Shown piece by piece: positions 18,105 to 27,976 of a DNA stretch of 64,000 bases. This DNA is from Planctomycetota bacterium (GTDB lineage: Bacteria > Planctomycetota > Phycisphaerae > UBA1845 > UTPLA1): contig QEVG01000005.1 in the NCBI GenBank assembly GCA_003576905.1, positions 142,424 to 206,423 on the forward strand, given 5' to 3'. A model generated the notes under the pieces. The model worked only from the letters and a program-made list of their open reading frames with translations, ran no database searches and was not told the origin of the DNA. The translations under genes and the position numbers were made by a program. Within the stretch, counting starts at the first letter, position 1. Each line of letters opens with the position of its first letter.

Positions 18105-19178
18105 ATGGACCTTCACAATCTGCTCAAGTTCGCGGTGGAGAGCAAGGCGTCGGATCTTCACATTCAGGCAGGCTCGGCGCCGATGCTGCGGATCGAGGGA
18201 GAATCGCGGTTTCTCGAATCCGAGCCGCTGACGAACGACGCGACGCGGGGGTTCGTGCTTTCCATCCTCCCGGAGAACCTGCGGGCCGACGCCGACCGCA
18301 ACATCCGCGAGGGAATTGACTTTTCCTACGATGCACCGGGAATCTCGCGGTTTCGGTGCAGCGCACATAGCCAGCTCGGCAGGTACGGCATCGTGCTTAG
18401 GGTCATCAAGGCACGAATTCCGACGTTTGACGAAATGAACCTGCCGCCGGTCGTTCAGGAGGTGGCCCTCTCTCAGCGCGGTCTGACCCTGGTCACGGGC
18501 ACGACGGGCTGCGGAAAGAGCACGACGCTGGCCGCGATGATCGACCTGATCAATCAGAAGTACCGCAACAAGATCATCACAATCGAGGACCCGGTTGAGT
18601 TCATACACACGAACAAGAAGTCGATGATCTCGCAGTTGGAAGTGGGGACGGACACAACGTCGTTCGACCAGGCGCTTCGGCAGGCGCTGCGGCAGGATCC
18701 GGACGTGATCCTCGTGGGCGAGCTTCGCGACGTCGAGACGCTACGGATGGCGCTGCGGGCGGCGGATACGGGGCACCAGGTTTTCTCGACGCTGCACTGT
18801 CAGAACGCGGCGCAGGCGGTGGAGCGCATCATCGCGATGTTTCCGAAGAACGAGCACGACATCCTGCTCTCCCAGCTCGCCGACTCGATCGAGGCGATCA
18901 TCTCGCAGCGGCTGGTCATGACCGCCGAGGGGAAGCGCCGCCCGGCGGTCGAGGTGCTCCGCGGCTCGCCGGTGACGGAGAAGTTCATCTTCGAGAACCG
19001 GCTGGGAGAGTTGCTGAGCTACATCGAGACGGGCGAATCCGGCATGCAGAGCTTCGATCAACACCTTCTCCGCATGTACAACGATAAGGTCATAACGGGC
19101 ACCGAGGCGCTGCGCTGGGCGACGAACCCGGAGGCCCTGGCGATGGCTTTCCGCGGCATTCGCCGAATCGGCGGCTAG
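18105..19178 (+). CDS. pilT: PilT-type twitching motility ATPase
   Basis: A hexameric AAA+-like ATPase of the secretion/pilus family that drives type IV pilus retraction. The 357 residues match PilT (about 345-370). Features are the N-terminal ASDLHIQAGSAPMLRIEG block, Walker A GTTGCGKST (about residue 132), the Asp box ITIEDPVEFIH, the Walker B region DPDVILVGELRD and the His box STLHCQNAAQ. The C-terminal GIRRIGG replaces the usual 'AMNPE' region end. PilU is possible, but the length and N-terminus favour PilT. A TATACT -10 element lies at 18064. No pilB or pilC is adjacent, although prepilin-like genes occur at 1-371 and 29689. Confidence 0.9.
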   Translation: MDLHNLLKFAVESKASDLHIQAGSAPMLRIEGESRFLESEPLTNDATRGFVLSILPENLRADADRNIREGIDFSYDAPGISRFRCSAHSQLGRYGIVLRVIKARIPTFDEMNLPPVVQEVALSQRGLTLVTGTTGCGKSTTLAAMIDLINQKYRNKIITIEDPVEFIHTNKKSMISQLEVGTDTTSFDQALRQALRQDPDVILVGELRDVETLRMALRAADTGHQVFSTLHCQNAAQAVERIIAMFPKNEHDILLSQLADSIEAIISQRLVMTAEGKRRPAVEVLRGSPVTEKFIFENRLGELLSYIETGESGMQSFDQHLLRMYNDKVITGTEALRWATNPEALAMAFRGIRRIGG

Positions 19179-19221: not shown

Positions 19222-19689
19222 CTATTCGCCGGCCACGGGGGCTTCTTTAAGAAATCGGCGCATCGCCTCGAGTGTCCTGGGGCTGATGTGATGCTCGATG
19301 CCCTCGGCGTCGGCCTCGGCATCGGGCCGCGCCACGCCCAGGGAGAGAAGGAACTCCAGCACGAGGCGGTGGCGCTCGCGCGCCCGCCGGGCCATCAGGC
19401 GTCCCTTGTCGGTGAGGAATATCGAGCGGTAGGGGGCCGACGTCACCAAGCCCTCTTTCCGGAGCCGGCTGATGCTCTTTGTGACGGTCACGTGGGTCAC
19501 GCCCAGATGCCGCGCGATATCCACGGCGCGGGCCTCGCCGCATTTCTGGATGAGGTCGTCGATCAGTTCGACATAATCCTCGGCGAGTTCGAGGGCGTGA
19601 TCCTGCCGGGTCCGGCGATGGCCGTTTGCCGAGCTCTCATGTACGGGATTCCTGCGAACGTGCTTTTTGCGGGCAAGTCGGTTCGGCAT
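19222..19689 (-). CDS. mntR: MntR-like manganese/iron-responsive repressor (DtxR family)
   Basis: The 155 residues match Escherichia-type MntR in length and layout. A basic N-terminus is followed by DYVELIDDLIQ, a winged helix with ARAVDIARHLGVTHVTVTKS, then FLTDKGRLMARRARERHRLV and AEGIEHHIS, which hold the His/Glu metal ligands of the dimerisation domain. It lacks a C-terminal SH3 domain, as in MntR. I started at MPNRLARKK; the frame is open 14 codons more. It is transcribed away from the metal transporter operon at 19921, with two palindromes in the shared intergenic region, so it very probably represses that operon and itself. Confidence 0.88.
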   Translation of the reverse strand: MPNRLARKKHVRRNPVHESSANGHRRTRQDHALELAEDYVELIDDLIQKCGEARAVDIARHLGVTHVTVTKSISRLRKEGLVTSAPYRSIFLTDKGRLMARRARERHRLVLEFLLSLGVARPDAEADAEGIEHHISPRTLEAMRRFLKEAPVAGE

Positions 19690-19834
19690 GGGATTCCTCG
19701 GCTGGGCCACGCGGCGCGATTGGCGGCACACGATGCGGCCGGCGACGTGCCCACGGTCGCATTCCCGGATTATTGCACGCGGCGGGGCGCGAATTCAAGG
19801 GTGAGTACACCTTGACGCCGATGCTCCTCAATTG

Positions 19835-19846
19835 TAGTATATGCTA
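19835..19846. promoter_or_regulatory. Imperfect palindrome, candidate MntR operator
   Basis: TAGTATATGCTA matches its own reverse complement at 10 of 12 positions, and it overlaps an A/T-rich -10-like region. It sits between the divergent mntR and transporter genes. Confidence 0.45.
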
Positions 19847-19855
19847 AATTATTTT

Positions 19856-19873
19856 GCCAGGACTTTACCTGGC
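19856..19873. promoter_or_regulatory. GCCAGG-N6-CCTGGC inverted repeat in the metal transporter leader
   Basis: Perfect 6-bp arms GCCAGG and CCTGGC around ACTTTA, 10 bp after the first palindrome. It could be a second repressor site or an RNA hairpin in the leader of the binding-protein gene. Confidence 0.45.
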
Positions 19874-19920
19874 ATGGCGGATCGGCTATGCTCAACGGGA
19901 AAGGGGGAGCGGAGAGTCCC

Positions 19921-20958
19921 ATGCGTCATTGGACCGTTCGGGTGACCTGTCTTTTTCTCGTCATGTCGGGGTGGCTGACCGTGCACGGCTGTGCGCCCGC
20001 GACCGAGGCCGCTCCGAAGGGCGGTCCGGCGCGGGTCGTCTGCACGGTCGGCATGGTGACGGATATCGTCCGGCGCATCGCGGGGGAGCGCGCGGAGGTG
20101 TCAGGCATCATCGGCGAGGGCGTGGACCCGCACCTGTATCAGGCGACAAGGTCGGATATCGCCGCGCTGCTGGGCGCGGATCTGGTCTTTTACAACGGCC
20201 TGATGCTGGAAGGAAAGATGGCCGACGCGCTGATCAAGGTCGGCCGGCAGCGACCGGTCTTCGCCGTGACGGAACTGCTGGACGAGTCGTTGCTGCTGGA
20301 GCCGCCGGAGTTCGCCGGGCACTTTGACCCGCACCTGTGGATGGATGTCTCGCTCTGGAAGAGGTGCGCCGAGATGGTGGCGCGGACACTGAGCGAGCGC
20401 GATACGGACGGCGCGGCGGCGTATCGGGCGAATTACGAGGCGCTTGCCGCGGAACTGGACGCGCTGCACGCCTATGCGAAACGGACCATCGCGACGATAC
20501 CGGCCGAGAGCCGCGTTTTGGTCACGGCCCACGATGCGTTCAATTATTTCGGCCGCGCATACGATATCGACGTGCGCGGGATTCAGGGAATCAGCACCGA
20601 GTCCGAGGCGGGAATCGCCGATATCAATCGCATTGTCGACATGCTCGTTCAGCGAAAAGTCCGTGCGGTCTTTGTGGAGTCGTCGGTGTCGGACAAGAAC
20701 GTCAAGGCGCTGATTGAGGGGGCGGCGGCGCGGGGCCATCGGGTGACTATCGGCGGCTCGCTCTTCTCCGACGCGATGGGTCGCCCCGGCACCTACGAGG
20801 GTACTTACGTCGGGATGATCGACCACAACGTGACCACGATTGCCCGCGCCCTGGGCGGCAGCGCTCCGGAGCGGGGCATGGCGGGCAAGCTTTCCGCGGC
20901 CGCGGCTGAAGGGAAATCGCTCCATACGGCGACGACCGCAACGGATACGGGAGGATAA
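19921..20958 (+). CDS. Manganese/iron/zinc ABC transporter binding lipoprotein (TroA/PsaA/YtgA type)
   Basis: A 345-residue cluster A-I metal-binding lipoprotein. The signal ends in the lipobox LTVHGC. Metal ligands expected for the family are visible: the His in VDPHLYQ, the His in [10 protein letters not shown], the [11 protein letters not shown] block, the Glu in [10 protein letters not shown] and the Asp in GMIDHNV. The absence of a long His-rich loop favours Mn/Fe over Zn. The start was chosen at MRHWTVRV; an earlier ATG 33 bp upstream is in frame. It is the first gene of a four-gene operon with the ATPase and two permease-repressor fusions, divergent from mntR. Confidence 0.9.
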
Positions 20959-21026
20959 CGGCCAGAGCCGGTCGAGCGCGCCGCTCCGAGCGGCGGCAGG
21001 CGCGGCGGGCGGTCCGAAGTCCACAT

Positions 21027-21842
21027 ATGCACGATCAAACGTCACCTTCTTCCGTTCAGCGCGCCTCGCCGGATCACGATCCGGCCTGCCCGGTCTCGAT
21101 CCACGATCTGACGGTCGCGTACCATCGTCGTCCGGTGCTGTGGGATATCGACTACGCGGGGCCGGAGGGTCAGCTTATCGGCATCGTCGGTCCGAACGGG
21201 GCCGGCAAGAGCACGTTGATCAAGGCCTGCCTGAATCTGGTTCCCATCGCGTCGGGCAGTGTAAGTTTCTACGGCAAGCCGTATCGCCAGCAGCGGCGGT
21301 TGGTGGGATATGTGCCGCAGCGTGAAAGCGTGGACTGGGATTTTCCGGCGAGCGTGCTCGACGTCGTCACGATGGGGCGCTATGGCCGGCTTCCGTGGTG
21401 TCTTCCGCCGACCCGAGAGGACCGCCGAGTGGCGCTGCATTGCCTTGAACAGGTGGGCATGGCGGATTACGCGCGGCGGCAGATCAGCCGGCTGTCGGGA
21501 GGGCAGCAGCAGCGCGTTTTCCTCGCGCGGGCCCTGGCCCAGGACGCACGCATCTACTTCATGGACGAGCCGTTCGCGGGGGTCGATGCCGCGACGGAAA
21601 CGGCGATCGTCGGGATTCTTCGCGAGCTGAGGGCTCGCGGACGCACCGTGCTGATCGTGCATCACGATCTTCAGACCGTCGCGGAGTACTTCAATCACGT
21701 CATCCTCCTCAACATGCGGATCATCGCCGCGGGGCCCACGGCGCAGGTCTTTACGCAGGAGAACCTGCAAAAAACGTACGGCGGGCGGCTGACGCTATTG
21801 GACAAGGCGGCGCAGGCGATGGCCCTGAACGGTAATCGATAA
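21027..21842 (+). CDS. Metal ABC transporter ATP-binding protein (TroB/MntB/YtgB type)
   Basis: A 271-residue ATPase with Walker [10 protein letters not shown] (about residue 57), Q-loop [15 protein letters not shown] (the 'VDWDFP' block is characteristic of Mn/Fe transporter ATPases), signature [15 protein letters not shown], Walker [15 protein letters not shown] and an H-loop in VHHDL. It energises uptake of the metal delivered by the upstream lipoprotein. Its TAA stop overlaps the next ATG by one base (TAATG), which indicates coupled translation. Confidence 0.93.
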
Positions 21843-23305
21843 TGTGCCCGGCATTCAGACAGAGAGAGCGCGACGAATGGCATTTGATGTCGCCGCGTGC
21901 GCGAGCGCTCGCCGCAATCGGAATGGCCGGGGTCCTCTGGTGCGGCGCGACGGTCGTCGCATCGGAGCCGGGGCGCTCCATTACGGACACCTCCATTCGA
22001 TGGCCGACGTGGCCGGAGTTGGCCCGGGCGCTCGCTCTTCGCGATTACAACACGCGTGTCGTGGTTCTTGGAACGGCGCTGCTGGGAGTGGCCGCCGGGG
22101 TCGTGGGCACATTTGCCTATCTTCGCCGGCGCGCCCTCATGGGCGACGCCCTCAGCCACGCCACGCTGCCGGGCATCGCGATCGTGTTTCTGCTGACCGG
22201 TGCCAAGAGCATGCCGCTGCTGCTGATGGGGGCAACGATTAGCGGCGTTCTGGGCGTGCTGGCGGTGCTCGGGATGCGGCGAATGCCGCGGATCAAGGAG
22301 GACGCGGCGATCGGAATCGTTTTGAGCGTCTTCTTTGGATTCGGCATGGTGCTTTTCGGGCTGATTCAACAGATGCAGACCGGCAACGAGGCGGGCCTGG
22401 CGGGGTTCATTTACGGCAAGGCGGCGGCGATGGTGGCGGGTGACGCCCGGCTGATCGGCGTCGTGGCGGCGGTCGTGGTCGCGGCCTGCGCGGCGCTGTT
22501 CAAGGAGTTTCGAGTCATCTGTTTCGATCAGGAATACGCTTCGTCGCAGGGTTTCCGCGTTCCGCTCATCGATCTGATCATGATGGGACTGGTGGTCATG
22601 ACAACGGTCGTGGGGCTTCAGGCGGTGGGGCTGATCCTGATCGTCGCGCTGCTGATCATTCCTGCCGCCGCGGCCCGGTTCTGGACCGATGACCTTTTGG
22701 TCATGGTGGCGCTGTCGGGGCTGTTCGGGGGCATGTCGTCCCTGATCGGCGCGACGCTCAGTGCGATTGTGTCGGGCCTTCCGACCGGGGCAATGATCGT
22801 TCTTTGCGCGGGTGTTTTCTTTTTTTTCAGCATGTTGATCGCACCGCGGCGAGGGGTGATTGCGTCGGCGGCGCGGCACTGGCTGCTCCGAAGGCGCGTC
22901 GCATATCAGCACCTGCTACGAGCCCTCGCTGAGTATGAGGAGACACACGGCGAAGGGGCGGCGATCGGCCGAAAGGACCTTTTCTCCGTCCGAAGCTGGT
23001 CCGCCGCGCAGGTGCGCCGAACGCTGGCGCGCGCGGTGCGGTCGGGCGATCTGGCGGTATTGGCGGATGGGTCCGTGCGCCTGACGCAGCGGGGCCGCGT
23101 CGAGGCACTTCGCATCCTGCGAAACCATCGACTGTGGGAACTCTACCTGATACGGCATGCGGACGTTGCGCCGTCGCACGTGGATCGCGACGCGGATGAA
23201 GTCGAACACGTTTTGTCGGAGGCGATCGTGCGCGATCTCGAGCGGGCGCTCGATGAAGTCGCGCGCGTGCCGCCTTCGCCGCACGTGCGGGAACCGGCGC
23301 CATGA
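21842..23305 (+). CDS. Metal ABC permease fused to a C-terminal DtxR-like repressor domain (YtgC-R type)
   Basis: 487 residues. Residues about 55-340 form an ABC-3 permease with eight or so spans; FAYLRRRALMGDALSHATLP is the diagnostic block. After LIAPRRGVI (about 335) the protein turns soluble. A winged helix follows (SAAQVRRTLARAVRSGDLAV), then VRLTQRGRVEALRILRNHRL, WELYLIRH and a DADEVEHVLSEAI helix. These match the DNA-binding and metal-binding domains of DtxR/MntR, with the His and the E..EH ligand pattern kept. Chlamydial YtgC-R has this design and is cleaved to free the repressor. The start could be 15 codons later (MSPRARAL). The stop overlaps the next gene (ATGA). Confidence 0.88.
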   Translation: MCPAFRQRERDEWHLMSPRARALAAIGMAGVLWCGATVVASEPGRSITDTSIRWPTWPELARALALRDYNTRVVVLGTALLGVAAGVVGTFAYLRRRALMGDALSHATLPGIAIVFLLTGAKSMPLLLMGATISGVLGVLAVLGMRRMPRIKEDAAIGIVLSVFFGFGMVLFGLIQQMQTGNEAGLAGFIYGKAAAMVAGDARLIGVVAAVVVAACAALFKEFRVICFDQEYASSQGFRVPLIDLIMMGLVVMTTVVGLQAVGLILIVALLIIPAAAARFWTDDLLVMVALSGLFGGMSSLIGATLSAIVSGLPTGAMIVLCAGVFFFFSMLIAPRRGVIASAARHWLLRRRVAYQHLLRALAEYEETHGEGAAIGRKDLFSVRSWSAAQVRRTLARAVRSGDLAVLADGSVRLTQRGRVEALRILRNHRLWELYLIRHADVAPSHVDRDADEVEHVLSEAIVRDLERALDEVARVPPSPHVREPAP

Positions 23306-24636
23306 CGGGATGGAACTGGCATCTCGACGGCTGGATCGTGCTGGCGGGCGTCCTCAGCGCATGTTCCTGCGCGCTGTTGGGCAACTATCTCGTGCTGCGC
23401 CGCATGAGCCTGATGGGCGACGCGATTTCACACGCGGTTCTGCCGGGGCTGGCCATTGCATTCCTGGTGACGCACAGCCGGTCGGCGGTGCCGATGTTTG
23501 CCGGCGCGGTCATCGCGGGCGTCGTGACGGCCGTCCTGTCGCAGGCAGTGAACCGGCACGGCAAGGTGGAACATGGGGCGGCGATGGGCGTCGTTTTCAG
23601 TGTACTGTTCGCGCTGGGGTTGATCCTCATTCGCCAGGCCGCCGATCATGTGGACCTTGATCCGGGCTGCGTTCTCTACGGGAACATCGCCCAGATTCCG
23701 CTTGAGGCGATCGGCGGACGCGTTCCGCCGCAGGTCGTGAACCTGGCCGTCGTGCTGGTTGTTGACGTGCTCTTCGTGGTACTTTTCTACAAGGAGCTGA
23801 AGATTTCCACGTTTGATCCGGAACTGGCGACGACGCTGGGGTACAACGCGGATACCCTGCACTACGCGCTGATGGTCCTCGTCTCCGTGACAACGGTCGC
23901 CAATTTCGAGTCGGTGGGGTCGATCCTGGTTATCGCCATGCTCATTGTGCCCGCCGTGACGGCGCACCTCCTGACGGACCGGCTGAGCGCCATGATCGGT
24001 GTCAGCCTGATGGCCGCGTGCCTGTCGGCGATCGGCGGCCATGTCTTCGCCGCCTTCGGTCCGGGCTGGCTCGGCATGAAGGCGGCGACCAACACATCCG
24101 CGATGATGGCCGTCGTAGCGGGACTGCTTCTCTGCGCGGCAGTGCTCCTGGCCCCGCGGCATGGACTCGTCAGCAGGCTTCTGCATCGCAGGCAGATGCG
24201 GATGACAATCCTTCGCGAGGATATTCTGGGTCTGCTCCATCGGTGGCAGGAGATGCGGGCCGAAGGCGGCAGGGCAATGACGCATCGCGAAGTGCTCGCG
24301 GCCGTTGGAGATACTCGTTCCGTGCGCCAGGCCATCCGTTCGCTGCTTCGAAAGCAGTTTGTCGAGAAGGCTTCCGGCCCCCCGGACGCGGGGCACACCT
24401 ACCGCCTAAGCGGAGACGGGCAGGCCCGAGCCGCCCGCCTGATTCGATCGCACCGACTGTGGGAATCCTACATCGATCGCCACTTCAACCTGCCGCCGGA
24501 CCATGTACATATGTCCGCGGAACGGGTCGAGCACTTCCTCACTCCGGAGTTGCGCCACGAAATTGAGGCCGACCTGACGTCTCCGCGAACGGATCCCCAC
24601 GGGCGCGAGATCCCGCCGGAGTCAATCGGGGGGTGA
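23302..24636 (+). CDS. Second metal ABC permease fused to a DtxR-like domain (YtgD type plus repressor)
   Basis: 444 residues. An ABC-3 permease (about 10-295) with NYLVLRRMSLMGDAISHAVL, then a cytoplasmic C-terminal part (about 296-444). That part holds a winged helix (MTHREVLAAVGDTRSVRQAI), then RLSGDGQARAARLIRSHRLW, ESYIDRHF, VHMSAERVEHFLTPEL and TDPHGREIP. The last block matches the 'CPHGxPIP' segment that ends the second domain of DtxR/MntR. In Chlamydia only YtgC carries a repressor domain, so a second fused copy is notable. It is the last gene of the operon and presumably forms the heteromeric membrane channel with the preceding gene. Confidence 0.87.
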   Translation: MTGWNWHLDGWIVLAGVLSACSCALLGNYLVLRRMSLMGDAISHAVLPGLAIAFLVTHSRSAVPMFAGAVIAGVVTAVLSQAVNRHGKVEHGAAMGVVFSVLFALGLILIRQAADHVDLDPGCVLYGNIAQIPLEAIGGRVPPQVVNLAVVLVVDVLFVVLFYKELKISTFDPELATTLGYNADTLHYALMVLVSVTTVANFESVGSILVIAMLIVPAVTAHLLTDRLSAMIGVSLMAACLSAIGGHVFAAFGPGWLGMKAATNTSAMMAVVAGLLLCAAVLLAPRHGLVSRLLHRRQMRMTILREDILGLLHRWQEMRAEGGRAMTHREVLAAVGDTRSVRQAIRSLLRKQFVEKASGPPDAGHTYRLSGDGQARAARLIRSHRLWESYIDRHFNLPPDHVHMSAERVEHFLTPELRHEIEADLTSPRTDPHGREIPPESIGG

Positions 24637-25084: not shown

Positions 25085-26509
25085 GTGTCCCGCATCCGCT
25101 GGTATCACTACTACTTCCTGCTCGCGCTGTTTGACGTCTTTGTCATTCTGCTGAGCCTCCACCTGCATAGCCGGACGGTCGCCAGCGCGTCTGAACTCAT
25201 CCATGCGGCTACGGACCTCGACGAGCAGTCACGGTGGCTGCAACTGGCGCAACAGAGAATCCTGGAATTGAACGCTCCCGGCAACGACCTCTTCCGTATG
25301 GAGGACTATCGCCTCCAGATTGCGCGGTTCGAGGTGGCTCGCCGGAACATGGACGAGGCGCTTCGGCAGGCGAGGAAGCTGCACATTCCCGTCGACCTGC
25401 CGACGCGTGAGATTGGGGAGATGGTGGCATCGGCGGAGACGGTCTTCGCGGAGTTCGCGTCGATCCAACGCGCGGATGTGACGGAGGACGTGAGGCGGGA
25501 GGCCATAGGCCGGGCCGGCAAGGCGATGGCACGGATGGATCAGTGGCAGCATGAATCGCTCTCGCGGCTGGGTCTGGTGCTCGCGAAAAACGCGGAAGTG
25601 CGCGATCGCCTTCTCCAGGAACACGAAAGCGACCTTCAGGCGCGCATTACCTATGAGCGGTATTTCATCGCGGCGGTCATCCTTATCCTTGTGGGCATTC
25701 TGTGGTTCGGCCGCCGATTGCAGGAATACGACCGTGCCCTTCAGGAACAGCGGCGCCGGCTGGCCGAGGAGCGCCGCGAGCGTCTGGCGGCGATCGGCGA
25801 ACTGTGCTCCAGCGTCGCCCATGGGATTCGAAATCCGCTCGCGGCGATCCGCAGTTCCGCGCAGCTTACTCTCGAGCTCGGCCGGATGGACGACGCCTCG
25901 CAGGCACGGCTCAAGGACATCCTGGAGGAAGGCAAGCGGCTGGGCGATCGCGTCACGGGCCTCCTGGGAATGGCGCGGGCCAACGCTGAGGGCTTTGAAT
26001 CGGTCAATCTGGGCGAACTGGTCGCAGGGGCGGTTATGGAACTGCGCCCGGAACTGGAGCGCCGGCAGATCGGAATTCAGGTCGAAATCGCTCCGGAGGA
26101 AATCCACGTGCACGGCGACCGCCATCAGCTTGCGCAGGTCGTTGTCGAATTGCTTTCCAATTCAATGGATCACGCCAAGGCGGGAGACTGCATCCACGTC
26201 GCCTGCCGCAGGCCGTCGGCCAACGGTACGGCCGCCATCGAGGTCGCTGACGAGGGGCCCGGCGTGCCGGAGGAAATCCGATCACGTGTTTTTGATCTGT
26301 TCTTTACGACGAAGCCGGGCGGAACGGGTATCGGGCTGGCGACGATCAAGCGATATGCCCGGCTGCACGGTGGGGACGTGACACTGGCGCCGTCTCACAG
26401 GGGAGCGCGGTTTCTCGTCACGCTTCCGGTGGCGCGCAGGGGTGATTCGGCGGCCCCGGAGGGGCATACGCCGCGGGATGAGCCGGAGGCACAAGCGGGC
26501 AAACAGTGA
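25085..26509 (+). CDS. Membrane sensor histidine kinase (NtrB-like)
   Basis: 474 residues from a GTG start. One membrane helix (about 7-27) is followed by a helical extracytoplasmic sensor of about 155 residues (30-190), and a second helix (about 192-210) leads without a HAMP domain into a short coiled coil. The kinase core has H-box SSVAHGIRNPLAAI (His about 247), N-box ELLSNSMDHAK (about 355), G1 DEGPGVP, F-box FDLFFTTKPGG and G2 GTGIGLAT. The 'GTGIGLA' type and the partner suggest an NtrB-like role. The response regulator follows in the same operon. The sensor has no recognisable ligand site. Confidence 0.88.
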   Translation: MSRIRWYHYYFLLALFDVFVILLSLHLHSRTVASASELIHAATDLDEQSRWLQLAQQRILELNAPGNDLFRMEDYRLQIARFEVARRNMDEALRQARKLHIPVDLPTREIGEMVASAETVFAEFASIQRADVTEDVRREAIGRAGKAMARMDQWQHESLSRLGLVLAKNAEVRDRLLQEHESDLQARITYERYFIAAVILILVGILWFGRRLQEYDRALQEQRRRLAEERRERLAAIGELCSSVAHGIRNPLAAIRSSAQLTLELGRMDDASQARLKDILEEGKRLGDRVTGLLGMARANAEGFESVNLGELVAGAVMELRPELERRQIGIQVEIAPEEIHVHGDRHQLAQVVVELLSNSMDHAKAGDCIHVACRRPSANGTAAIEVADEGPGVPEEIRSRVFDLFFTTKPGGTGIGLATIKRYARLHGGDVTLAPSHRGARFLVTLPVARRGDSAAPEGHTPRDEPEAQAGKQ

Positions 26510-26563
26510 ATGTCGAGCGGCGGCAGAGCCGGTCGCCGCTTGTCTGATTTCGGAGACAGTGCG

Positions 26564-27976
26564 ATGGCACGAATACTGGTTGTTGAAGATGAGCGCGTTC
26601 TTGCGAAGAACGTGCGCGAAAAGCTGGCGGCGCATGGACACGAGGTTCGAATCGCGCATAGCGGACGCGAGGCGACGGCGACCAATGCCGAGTTTCTGCC
26701 CGAGGTGGTGATTCTCGACCTGCGCCTGCCGGACACCGACGGGCTGAAGATCCTGCCGCAGCTCAAGGCGGAGTCGCCCTTCACCAACGTGGTGGTAGTC
26801 ACGGCCCACGGCAACGAGCGCATCGCGGTGGATGCCATGAAGGCGGGGGCGTGCGAGTATCTCACGAAGCCCGTCGACCTTGACGAGCTCCTCATGGTCG
26901 TGGGGCGGGTTGTCGATCTCCAGCAGATCAATGACAACCTGACGTTTCTCAAGAGCCGCGAGGAAGAGAGCAGCGGGCTGGACCGCATCATCGGCGATTC
27001 GGAACCGGTACGGGCGCTCAAGGAAAGCATCCGCCGGCTTACGCGAACCGAAGTGCTGAGCCTGCCCGATCCGCCGACGGTGCTCATCACCGGCGAGACC
27101 GGAACCGGCAAGGATCTCGTCGCACGGGCGATTCACTACCAGGGGCCGCGACGGGGCCGGCCGTTCATTCACGTCAATTGCACTGCGCTTCCGTCGACGC
27201 TGTTTGAATCCGAACTGTTCGGGCACGTACGCGGGGCATTCACAAGCGCGACCCAGGCGAAGCGCGGACTGTTTGAGGTGGCCCAGGGCGGAACGATATT
27301 CCTCGATGAAATCGGTCACCTTGAGGCCGACATGCAGGCGAAGCTGCTGCAGACCATCGAGCACCGCGAGATACGCCCGGTGGGCGCGACGCAGACACGG
27401 CCGATCAACGTGCACATCGTGGCGGCGACGAATCGAGACCTCTCGGCCGCCGTGGAAAGCGGCGAGTTTCGGCGCGACCTGTACCATCGCCTGCGCGTCG
27501 TGCACCTCCATCTCGCGCCGCTGCGGGACAGGCCGGAGGATATTCCGCTGCTTGCCACGCACTTCCTGAACCTTCACTGCCGGCGGTTCGGGCTCGGCGC
27601 GAAGCACTTTTCGGAAGAGGCCCTGCGCGCACTTCGCCGTTTTGACTGGCGCGGAAACGTCCGCGAACTGTCGCACACGATCGAGAGCTGTGTGCTCCAG
27701 GCGGATTCCGACGTGGTCGAGCCGGGCCACCTCCCGATGCCGGGCGAGGGCAAGGCGGCCGACATGACGATCGAGCTGCCGCACAACCGCGTGATTCAGA
27801 TGGATTTTGAGCGTGAGCGGCCCACCCTGGACGAGGTGGAGCACGCCATACTCGTTGCGGCGTTCGAATACACTGGCCAGAACCTGAGCCGGGCCGCGCG
27901 AATCCTTGGCATTACGCGGGAAGCCCTGCGTTACCGGCTTAACAAGTCGATGGAGACGACGCGCCATGCGCAGTAA
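26564..27976 (+). CDS. NtrC-family response regulator with AAA+ domain (GAFTSA variant)
   Basis: 470 residues. A receiver domain (ARILVVEDE, phosphorylatable Asp in [10 protein letters not shown] near residue 50, Lys in YLTKP) is joined to an AAA+ sigma-54 activator domain (Walker A GETGTGKD about 176, Walker [10 protein letters not shown] about 245). It ends in a Fis-type helix-turn-helix ([18 protein letters not shown]). The sigma-54 contact loop normally reads GAFTGA; here it is GAFTSA. The start at 26564 has GGAGA 7 bp upstream; the frame opens directly after the kinase stop. It is expected to act on sigma-54 promoters, several of which are candidates in this window. It overlaps the next gene by 11 bp. 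Confidence 0.9.

Follow-up and report, generated by a model that had tools for sequence, protein, structure and literature searches.

The 64,000-nucleotide stretch of planctomycete DNA analyzed here (contig QEVG01000005.1, positions 142,424 to 206,423; the window) contains, between positions 19222 and 24636, a metal ABC importer operon in which the genes for a substrate-binding protein (SBP), an ATPase and two ABC-3 permeases, A and B, lie adjacent on one strand, with a gene for a separate MntR oriented divergently (Table 1). The families expected of such an importer were all matched far over their cut-offs (PF00950, PF01297 and PF00005), the lipobox of the SBP was read directly from the sequence, and the frames touch or overlap, the ATPase stop meeting the start of A at 21842 and the stop of A meeting the start of B at 23302-23305. 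Both permeases extend into a DtxR-type tail, and in both tails the metal ligands are near-invariant among relatives while the DNA-reading helix has drifted.

Table 1. Features of the importer locus, with positions in the window
Feature	Position	Strand	Basis or remark
Separate MntR, E. coli-type, without SH3-like domain	19222..19731	-	PRK11050 193.9 bits; start codon uncertain
Promoter-like site of importer operon, TTGACG-17-TAGTAT	19812..19840	+	consensus match only
Predicted MntR-type operator TTGTAGTATATGCTAAAT, half-sites TAGY-N4-GCTA, overlapping -10 box	19832..19849	+	predicted from sequence
Substrate-binding protein, ZnuA family	19888..20958	+	PF01297 259.3 bits; lipoprotein signal; likely start 19921
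Importer ATPase	21027..21842	+	PF00005 94.1 bits; has Walker A and LSGGQ motifs
Permease A membrane domain, residues 71-333	22052..22840	+	
Permease A continuous helix, residues 339-369, membrane end into tail helix 1	22856..22948	+	AlphaFold2 model
Permease A tail, residues 345-487, winged helix, variable recognition helix ~23003-23041	22874..23302	+	
Permease B membrane domain, residues 13-281	23338..24144	+	ATG of B overlaps stop of A
Permease B continuous helix, residues 289-318, membrane end into tail helix 1	24166..24255	+	AlphaFold2 model
Permease B tail, residues 293-444, winged helix, variable recognition helix ~24316-24351, DPHGxxIP block	24178..24633	+	

DtxR-type tails on both permeases

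An initial annotation of this DNA had proposed that both permeases end in a winged helix and a DtxR/MntR metal-binding domain, and a profile search of the two C-termini against DtxR models bore this out: PF02742 was found in both, at 55.4 (A) and 69.2 (B) bits against a cut-off of 27, with the metal ligands kept. In each permease open reading frame (ORF), PF00950 and PF02742 share one reading frame, which is the arrangement of a YtgCR-type fusion. The DtxR DNA-binding model PF01325 was reached by MntR alone, neither tail reaching it at an E value of 0.01. The divergent MntR is complete, as annotated, with both PF01325 and PF02742 present, a PRK11050 score over the equivalog cut-off (193.9 versus 153 bits) and a match to the E. 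coli MntR structure 2h09 at an E value of 4.6e-36. In the window's own 4.7-Mb assembly (97% complete), PF02742 had no match beyond these three.

The PHGxxIP block that had been recognized in the B tail is indeed present, as DPHGxxIP. The best sequence match of this tail is DR2539 of Deinococcus (6.3e-12), which is also its best DtxR-family match in Foldseek; a DtxR fold is seen for the B tail and is less clear for the A tail. In the AlphaFold2 models of both permeases, a helix of 30 to 31 residues runs unbroken from the membrane domain into the tail, without a linker, and the alignment of the membrane-tail joint was gap-free in all eight tails aligned. Judged from these models, the joint between membrane domain and tail looks rigid.

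Distribution and descent of the fused tails

Fusion of both permeases recurs commonly among related Planctomycetota and is not peculiar to this genome. In a set of 41 genomes, the window's own included, a two-permease locus was seen in 25, and the survey for one or two fusions that the initial annotation had called for gave two in 22 of these 25; leaving out the window's own genome, both permeases are fused in 21 of 40. One further genome (L067) has a single tailed permease, and in the other 15 no such locus was seen around the PF02742 matches, a search that an importer without any tail would escape. In three loci (L057, L058 and L062), MntR was kept (149-209 bits) and no importer was seen in the fetched stretch, one of these genomes being 75% complete; MntR may have other targets there.

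By a looser criterion, applied to 294 genomes across the phylum, permease B was matched at an E value of 1e-20 or better in 93, at least 72 of which had a listed match reaching the tail (query residue 400 or beyond). Two tail-reaching matches lay within 4 kb of each other in at least 31 of the 294 genomes (own genome included), and further apart or on different contigs in at least four. According to precomputed Pfam assignments, the tail is present in all of the best 120 of 5208 and all of the best 120 of 7544 permease homologues, lists that each include the window's own protein and that stem from a tailed query, which favors tailed matches. Named homologues are mostly assigned to Phycisphaerae/Phycisphaerales, Tepidisphaeraceae or unspecified Planctomycetes; a close homologue labelled "cyanobacterium TDX16" (P0129) possibly represents a contaminating planctomycete contig in that record. 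An annotation artefact or frameshift as the source of the tails was rejected, since every one of the 25 two-permease loci contains one or two open tailed frames, with two in 22 of them, and since the tail is present in each of the 240 rows of the two permease lists, the window's own proteins accounting for two of these rows.

Named genomes were also scanned by tail pattern, so that loci in this set are tailed by construction. Among the best 80 of 585 loci, both permeases are tailed in six, A is tailed and B bare in three (all Verrucomicrobiota), one (L135) shows the tail frame only, and 70 have one tailed permease with no close partner recognized in the fetched stretch. Saprospiraceae, Ignavibacteria and Pirellulaceae are numerous among the latter, and many of the stretches end at contig ends; in L128, a second permease was found at a distance, on the other strand. 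No chlamydial locus was present among these best 80. Operons with one tailed permease would be expected to form homodimers with two identical tails.

A different arrangement was found among 357 fetched proteins, 53 of which are longer than 700 amino acids: each of the 53 is a single chain made up of A, B and one tail, in the order A-tail-B (42/53) or A-B-tail (11/53). These chains were drawn from the best matches to tailed queries, and tail-less or two-tailed chains may exist. By eye, the B half in single-chain relatives seems to be preceded by a leader resembling the N-terminus of the window's permease A (21842-22030), where about 55 additional residues, modelled with low confidence, include a signal-like helix (residues 18-32).

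Both tails are probably derived from one fused permease gene that later underwent duplication. In the tail tree, one branch (SH-aLRT 99) splits the 28 free regulators from all fused tails used, and the permease tree resolves A and B as two distinct clades, with single tailed permeases lying around both and with the Verrucomicrobiota tailed A grouping with A (98) and their bare B with B (99); both trees come from quick searches and are unrooted and subsampled (97 of 158 rows for the tails, 75 of 136 for the permeases), with weak deep branches. Because bare A permeases (L035 and L042) and a bare B permease (L040) are nested among tailed relatives, their state reads as tail loss, and the simplest history would run from an old fused permease through its duplication to sporadic loss of a tail. 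A separate origin of each fusion from its own free repressor is not favored, the free regulators and the fused tails lying on opposite sides of a branch. When the initial annotation spoke of a duplication of the fusion, it was thus probably right as to origin, since the trees fit a duplicated fused permease, within the limits set by their lack of a root and by subsampling. Within one family of relatives, the missing tail is that of A in some members and that of B in others; loci lacking both would escape our search.

Conservation of the metal site and of the DNA-reading helix

Conservation in the tails was assessed in 112 A tails (the window and P0002 to P0112, all below 560 amino acids; P0001, identical to the window, and P0113 to P0120 left out) and 120 B tails (the window and P0122 to P0240; the near-identical P0121 left out). 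The residues that align with DtxR/MntR metal ligands hardly vary: H429, E433, D452, E455 and H456 of A occur in 112/112 sequences and D448 in 111/112, and D307, H384, E388, H403, E410 and H411 of B occur in 120/120, with E407 in 111/120. Entropy at these metal-ligand columns is 0 to 0.53 bits. Much higher values were obtained at the columns matched in a manual alignment to P39 and Q43 of DtxR/IdeR, two residues for which DNA-bound structures of variants exist (titles of 7b24 and 7b25), namely, 3.43 and 2.30 bits at A389 and A393 and 3.35 and 3.02 bits at B339 and B343. Loss of the DNA-contact residues in both tails, which the initial annotation had named as an observation that would speak against its proposal, is largely seen, with the exception that the window's own B keeps Q at 343, where this letter is outside the six commonest; it is a statement about the family and not about every letter of the window.

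The MntR proteins of the same loci served as a control for tail conservation, in a paired set comprising 15 of the 25 two-permease loci (left out were three without one tail and seven without an MntR above 100 bits in the stretch) and with regions defined by B. subtilis MntR numbering (helix-turn-helix [HTH], 25-50; recognition helix, 35-48; wing, 52-63; metal domain, 74-118). Mean pairwise identity in the HTH was 0.32 for A, 0.35 for B and 0.68 for MntR, and in the metal domain it was 0.72, 0.56 and 0.67, respectively. The difference between the two (HTH minus metal domain) was -0.40 (bootstrap range, -0.46 to -0.34) for A, -0.21 (-0.26 to -0.16) for B and +0.01 (-0.03 to 0.05) for MntR, so that the range of neither tail overlaps that of MntR. 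For the recognition helix alone, the difference was -0.41 (-0.49 to -0.32) in A and -0.04 (-0.10 to 0.04) in MntR, and identity in the wing was 0.30 in each tail versus 0.82 in MntR.

The same pattern was found beyond the paired loci. In larger sets, the HTH-metal difference was -0.33 for A (n=29) and -0.26 for B (n=31); it was -0.40 in 39 Bacteroidota tails and -0.37 in eight mostly Pirellulaceae tails (a group that includes one member of the Planctomycetaceae and one unplaced planctomycete), versus +0.03 in 20 MntR proteins. In the single-chain relatives, the six ligand columns of the tail are invariant and the difference was -0.46 (n=42) and -0.36 (n=11). Where a free DtxR lies beside a fused tail (six loci), the free protein retains a recognizable helix, with identities of 0.50 in the HTH and 0.59 in the metal domain, unlike the fused tail, with 0.27 and 0.60, respectively.

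Gene control and possible roles of the tails

An MntR-type operator is predicted in front of the importer genes and would plausibly serve MntR; since this site overlaps the promoter-like site of the importer, control of the importer genes is plausibly the task of MntR. The sequence TTGTAGTATATGCTAAAT (19832-19849) is the only match in the window within three mismatches, and three further promoter-like sites lie nearby on the minus strand. The underlying motif, TAGC-N4-GCTA, which we take to be close to the E. coli MntR box, occurs in 18 of 26 upstream regions, and in 14 of the 17 with a divergent MntR, when at least seven of its eight half-site bases are required. Each of the 18 has a p value below 0.05 relative to plain base shuffles, the motif having first been spotted by eye in five of the 26 regions. 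In the window's own genome, three places within one mismatch were found, fewer than for the reversed control pattern, which shows scarcity of the operator rather than a regulon. A perfect MntR-like palindrome, TTGTAGCCGTGGCTACAA, lies at G000:C8:74477-74494 (L153:1501-1518) between two divergent ORFs, by eye of the phosphodiesterase/alkaline-phosphatase type and esterase-like, with no obvious link to metal.

As for the tails, we lean, with slightly better than even confidence, toward the explanation that they stay attached, sense metal on the cytosolic side and act on the importer itself to inhibit transport (trans-inhibition), instead of acting as released repressors. This explanation is ranked first because the sensing part is fixed, the DNA-reading part has drifted, the joint looks rigid and an MntR is present. 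The cargo would be manganese or iron, as MntR adjoins the operon and the B tail resembles Mn-dependent regulators; among models for the ATPase, those of Mn/Fe transporters rank first, all below their cut-offs. Binding of cytosolic Mn(II) or Fe(II) may then bring the tails together beneath the transporter or make them stiffer, and tails in that state could hold the ATPases or the permeases in a non-cycling state, a hold for which methionine in MetNI and molybdate in ModABC would be precedents. MntR would provide a slow, transcriptional brake and the tails a fast one, and duplication would have kept two sensors per heterodimer where the homodimer had two identical ones. The initial idea of a transporter that senses its own cargo stands insofar as sensors for the likely cargo sit on both permeases beside MntR; the means proposed for it, release of a repressor or tethering of DNA to the membrane, have been weakened.

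Several observations weigh against direct inhibition by the tails. The winged-helix fold is retained, the fused HTH carries positive net charge (mean, +3.6 in A and +3.2 in B, versus +3.1 in MntR) and some common arginines are kept, so loose binding of DNA by the tails may occur. For the recognition helix alone, the contrast in B is small (-0.14; -0.19 to -0.09), its range just touching that of MntR. Free regulators vary too: 25 divergent free DtxR-like frames have identities of 0.29 in the HTH and 0.36 in the metal domain, in a set that is impure (L135 probably represents the tail end of a truncated permease, and four of the frames are 347-366 amino acids long), and at a metal-domain identity of 0.45-0.70 the contrast is reduced, mean HTH identity being 0.34 in free (59 pairs) versus 0.24 in fused (538 pairs) proteins. 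The metal region of A is invariant, yet its model confidence is low (pLDDT 53-58 at residues 441-460). The cargo is uncertain, the best NCBIfam model for the SBP being a zinc one (AztC, 195.9 bits, below the cut-off of 350), followed in rank by Mn/Fe models. Single-tail loci occur, with the tail on B only in L035 and L042 (one genus) and on A only in L040, and the single-chain relatives show that one tail per permease pair is enough in some lineages. Finally, chlamydial YtgCR, the only studied relative found, is a released DNA-binding repressor. A strict pairing of an A with a B tail as a requirement was ruled out by the single-tail relatives L035, L042 and L040.

Cleavage of the tails, yielding soluble repressors that depend on metal and act singly or as A-B heterodimers, would follow the chlamydial example, in which YtgR, once cut from YtgC, acts as a repressor of the operon that encodes it (PMC7755916 and PMC5599777), and would suit the DtxR fold of the B tail (less clearly that of A) and the positive charge that both tails keep. 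We nevertheless consider it unlikely: the recognition helices have drifted, an unfused MntR and an operator-like site already exist at the locus, the models show no flexible linker, and release would need two cuts in 42 of the 53 single-chain proteins, in which the tail is sandwiched between the permeases.

Quite unlikely, in our view, is a nonregulatory role as a metal acceptor at the cytosolic exit, a built-in chaperone that would capture imported ions or hand them on. The near-invariance of the ligands in both permeases and a position at the cytosolic end would fit such a role, but either tail has been lost in relatives, which suggests an accessory rather than a conduit, and the listed relatives with solved structures carry the names of regulators. 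Repressors that bind DNA while still attached to the importer seem very unlikely; a membrane-anchored repressor is raised as a possibility for YtgC in the available part of PMC5599777, and the winged-helix fold and positive charge are kept, but the DNA-reading helix has drifted, and tail helix 1, modelled as a rigid extension of the permease, would limit the reach of a dimer to DNA. Least likely among the alternatives is control of importer stability, with metal binding exposing the importer to, or hiding it from, a protease, although controlled proteolysis of transporters is covered in the excerpted text of a review (PMC10710835).

Returning to direct inhibition by the tails, a wider claim can be made, which we advance tentatively and at somewhat less than even confidence: fused DtxR domains may constitute a widespread family of importer metal gauges without DNA reading, found in Planctomycetota, Verrucomicrobiota, Bacteroidota, Ignavibacteriota and others, in which two metal-closed tails (identical in homodimers, A and B in heterodimers) would form a cytosolic clamp. 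The chlamydial released repressor would then be an exception or a reversion and not the model for the family.

Like YtgCR of Chlamydia trachomatis, each permease described here combines a metal ABC permease and a C-terminal DtxR-like domain in one ORF. In Chlamydia, one permease of ytgABCD is fused, and its tail is cleaved to give iron-dependent repression (PMC7755916, PMC6504234 and PMC5599777, all in part), whereas here both permeases are fused, a free MntR is present and the DNA-reading helix has drifted. Permease-repressor fusions have been reported from 11 phyla by Thompson (2012), as cited in the consulted portion of PMC5599777. No paper on a double fusion or on drift of the DNA-reading helix was found in the literature searched, in which Thompson (2012) was represented only through the citing paper, and within that scope the double fusion appears undescribed, as the initial annotation had supposed. 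The B tail, including its PHGxxIP block, resembles DR2539, a Mn-dependent DtxR-type repressor (8pvt, 8pvz and 8pw0), which unlike the tail is a free DNA-binding protein, solved on promoter DNA (title of 8pw0). The chains of the Mn importer PsaBC of S. pneumoniae (7kyp and 7kyo), at 258-290 residues, are too short for a sensor tail.

The likeness that we propose is to MetNI and ModABC, in which trans-inhibition is exerted by domains borne on the ATPase (PMC10710835, in part): there, a cytosolic ligand-binding domain on the transporter gives feedback by its own cargo, as the tails may do here, although here the domain is on the permeases. The fusion and the metal ligands are observed at our locus, and the identity of ligand and cargo and the cytosolic side of the tails are presumed. 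The regulatory domain of MetNI and ModABC is, to our knowledge, not of the DtxR family, and Mn and Fe importers tend to be discussed mainly in terms of control at the gene level. If our explanation is true, the transfer of a transcription-factor sensor to a pump, with the metal site fixed and the DNA-reading part drifting, would directly exemplify the conversion of a repressor domain into an allosteric brake; this bears on how YtgCR-type permease-repressor fusions should be read outside Chlamydia, and the gauge idea is testable with purified protein from an environmental bacterium.

Judging from ORF translations alone, the locus is flanked upstream by a PilT/PilB-like ATPase (18105-19178) and downstream by a histidine kinase and an NtrC-type response regulator (25085-27976).

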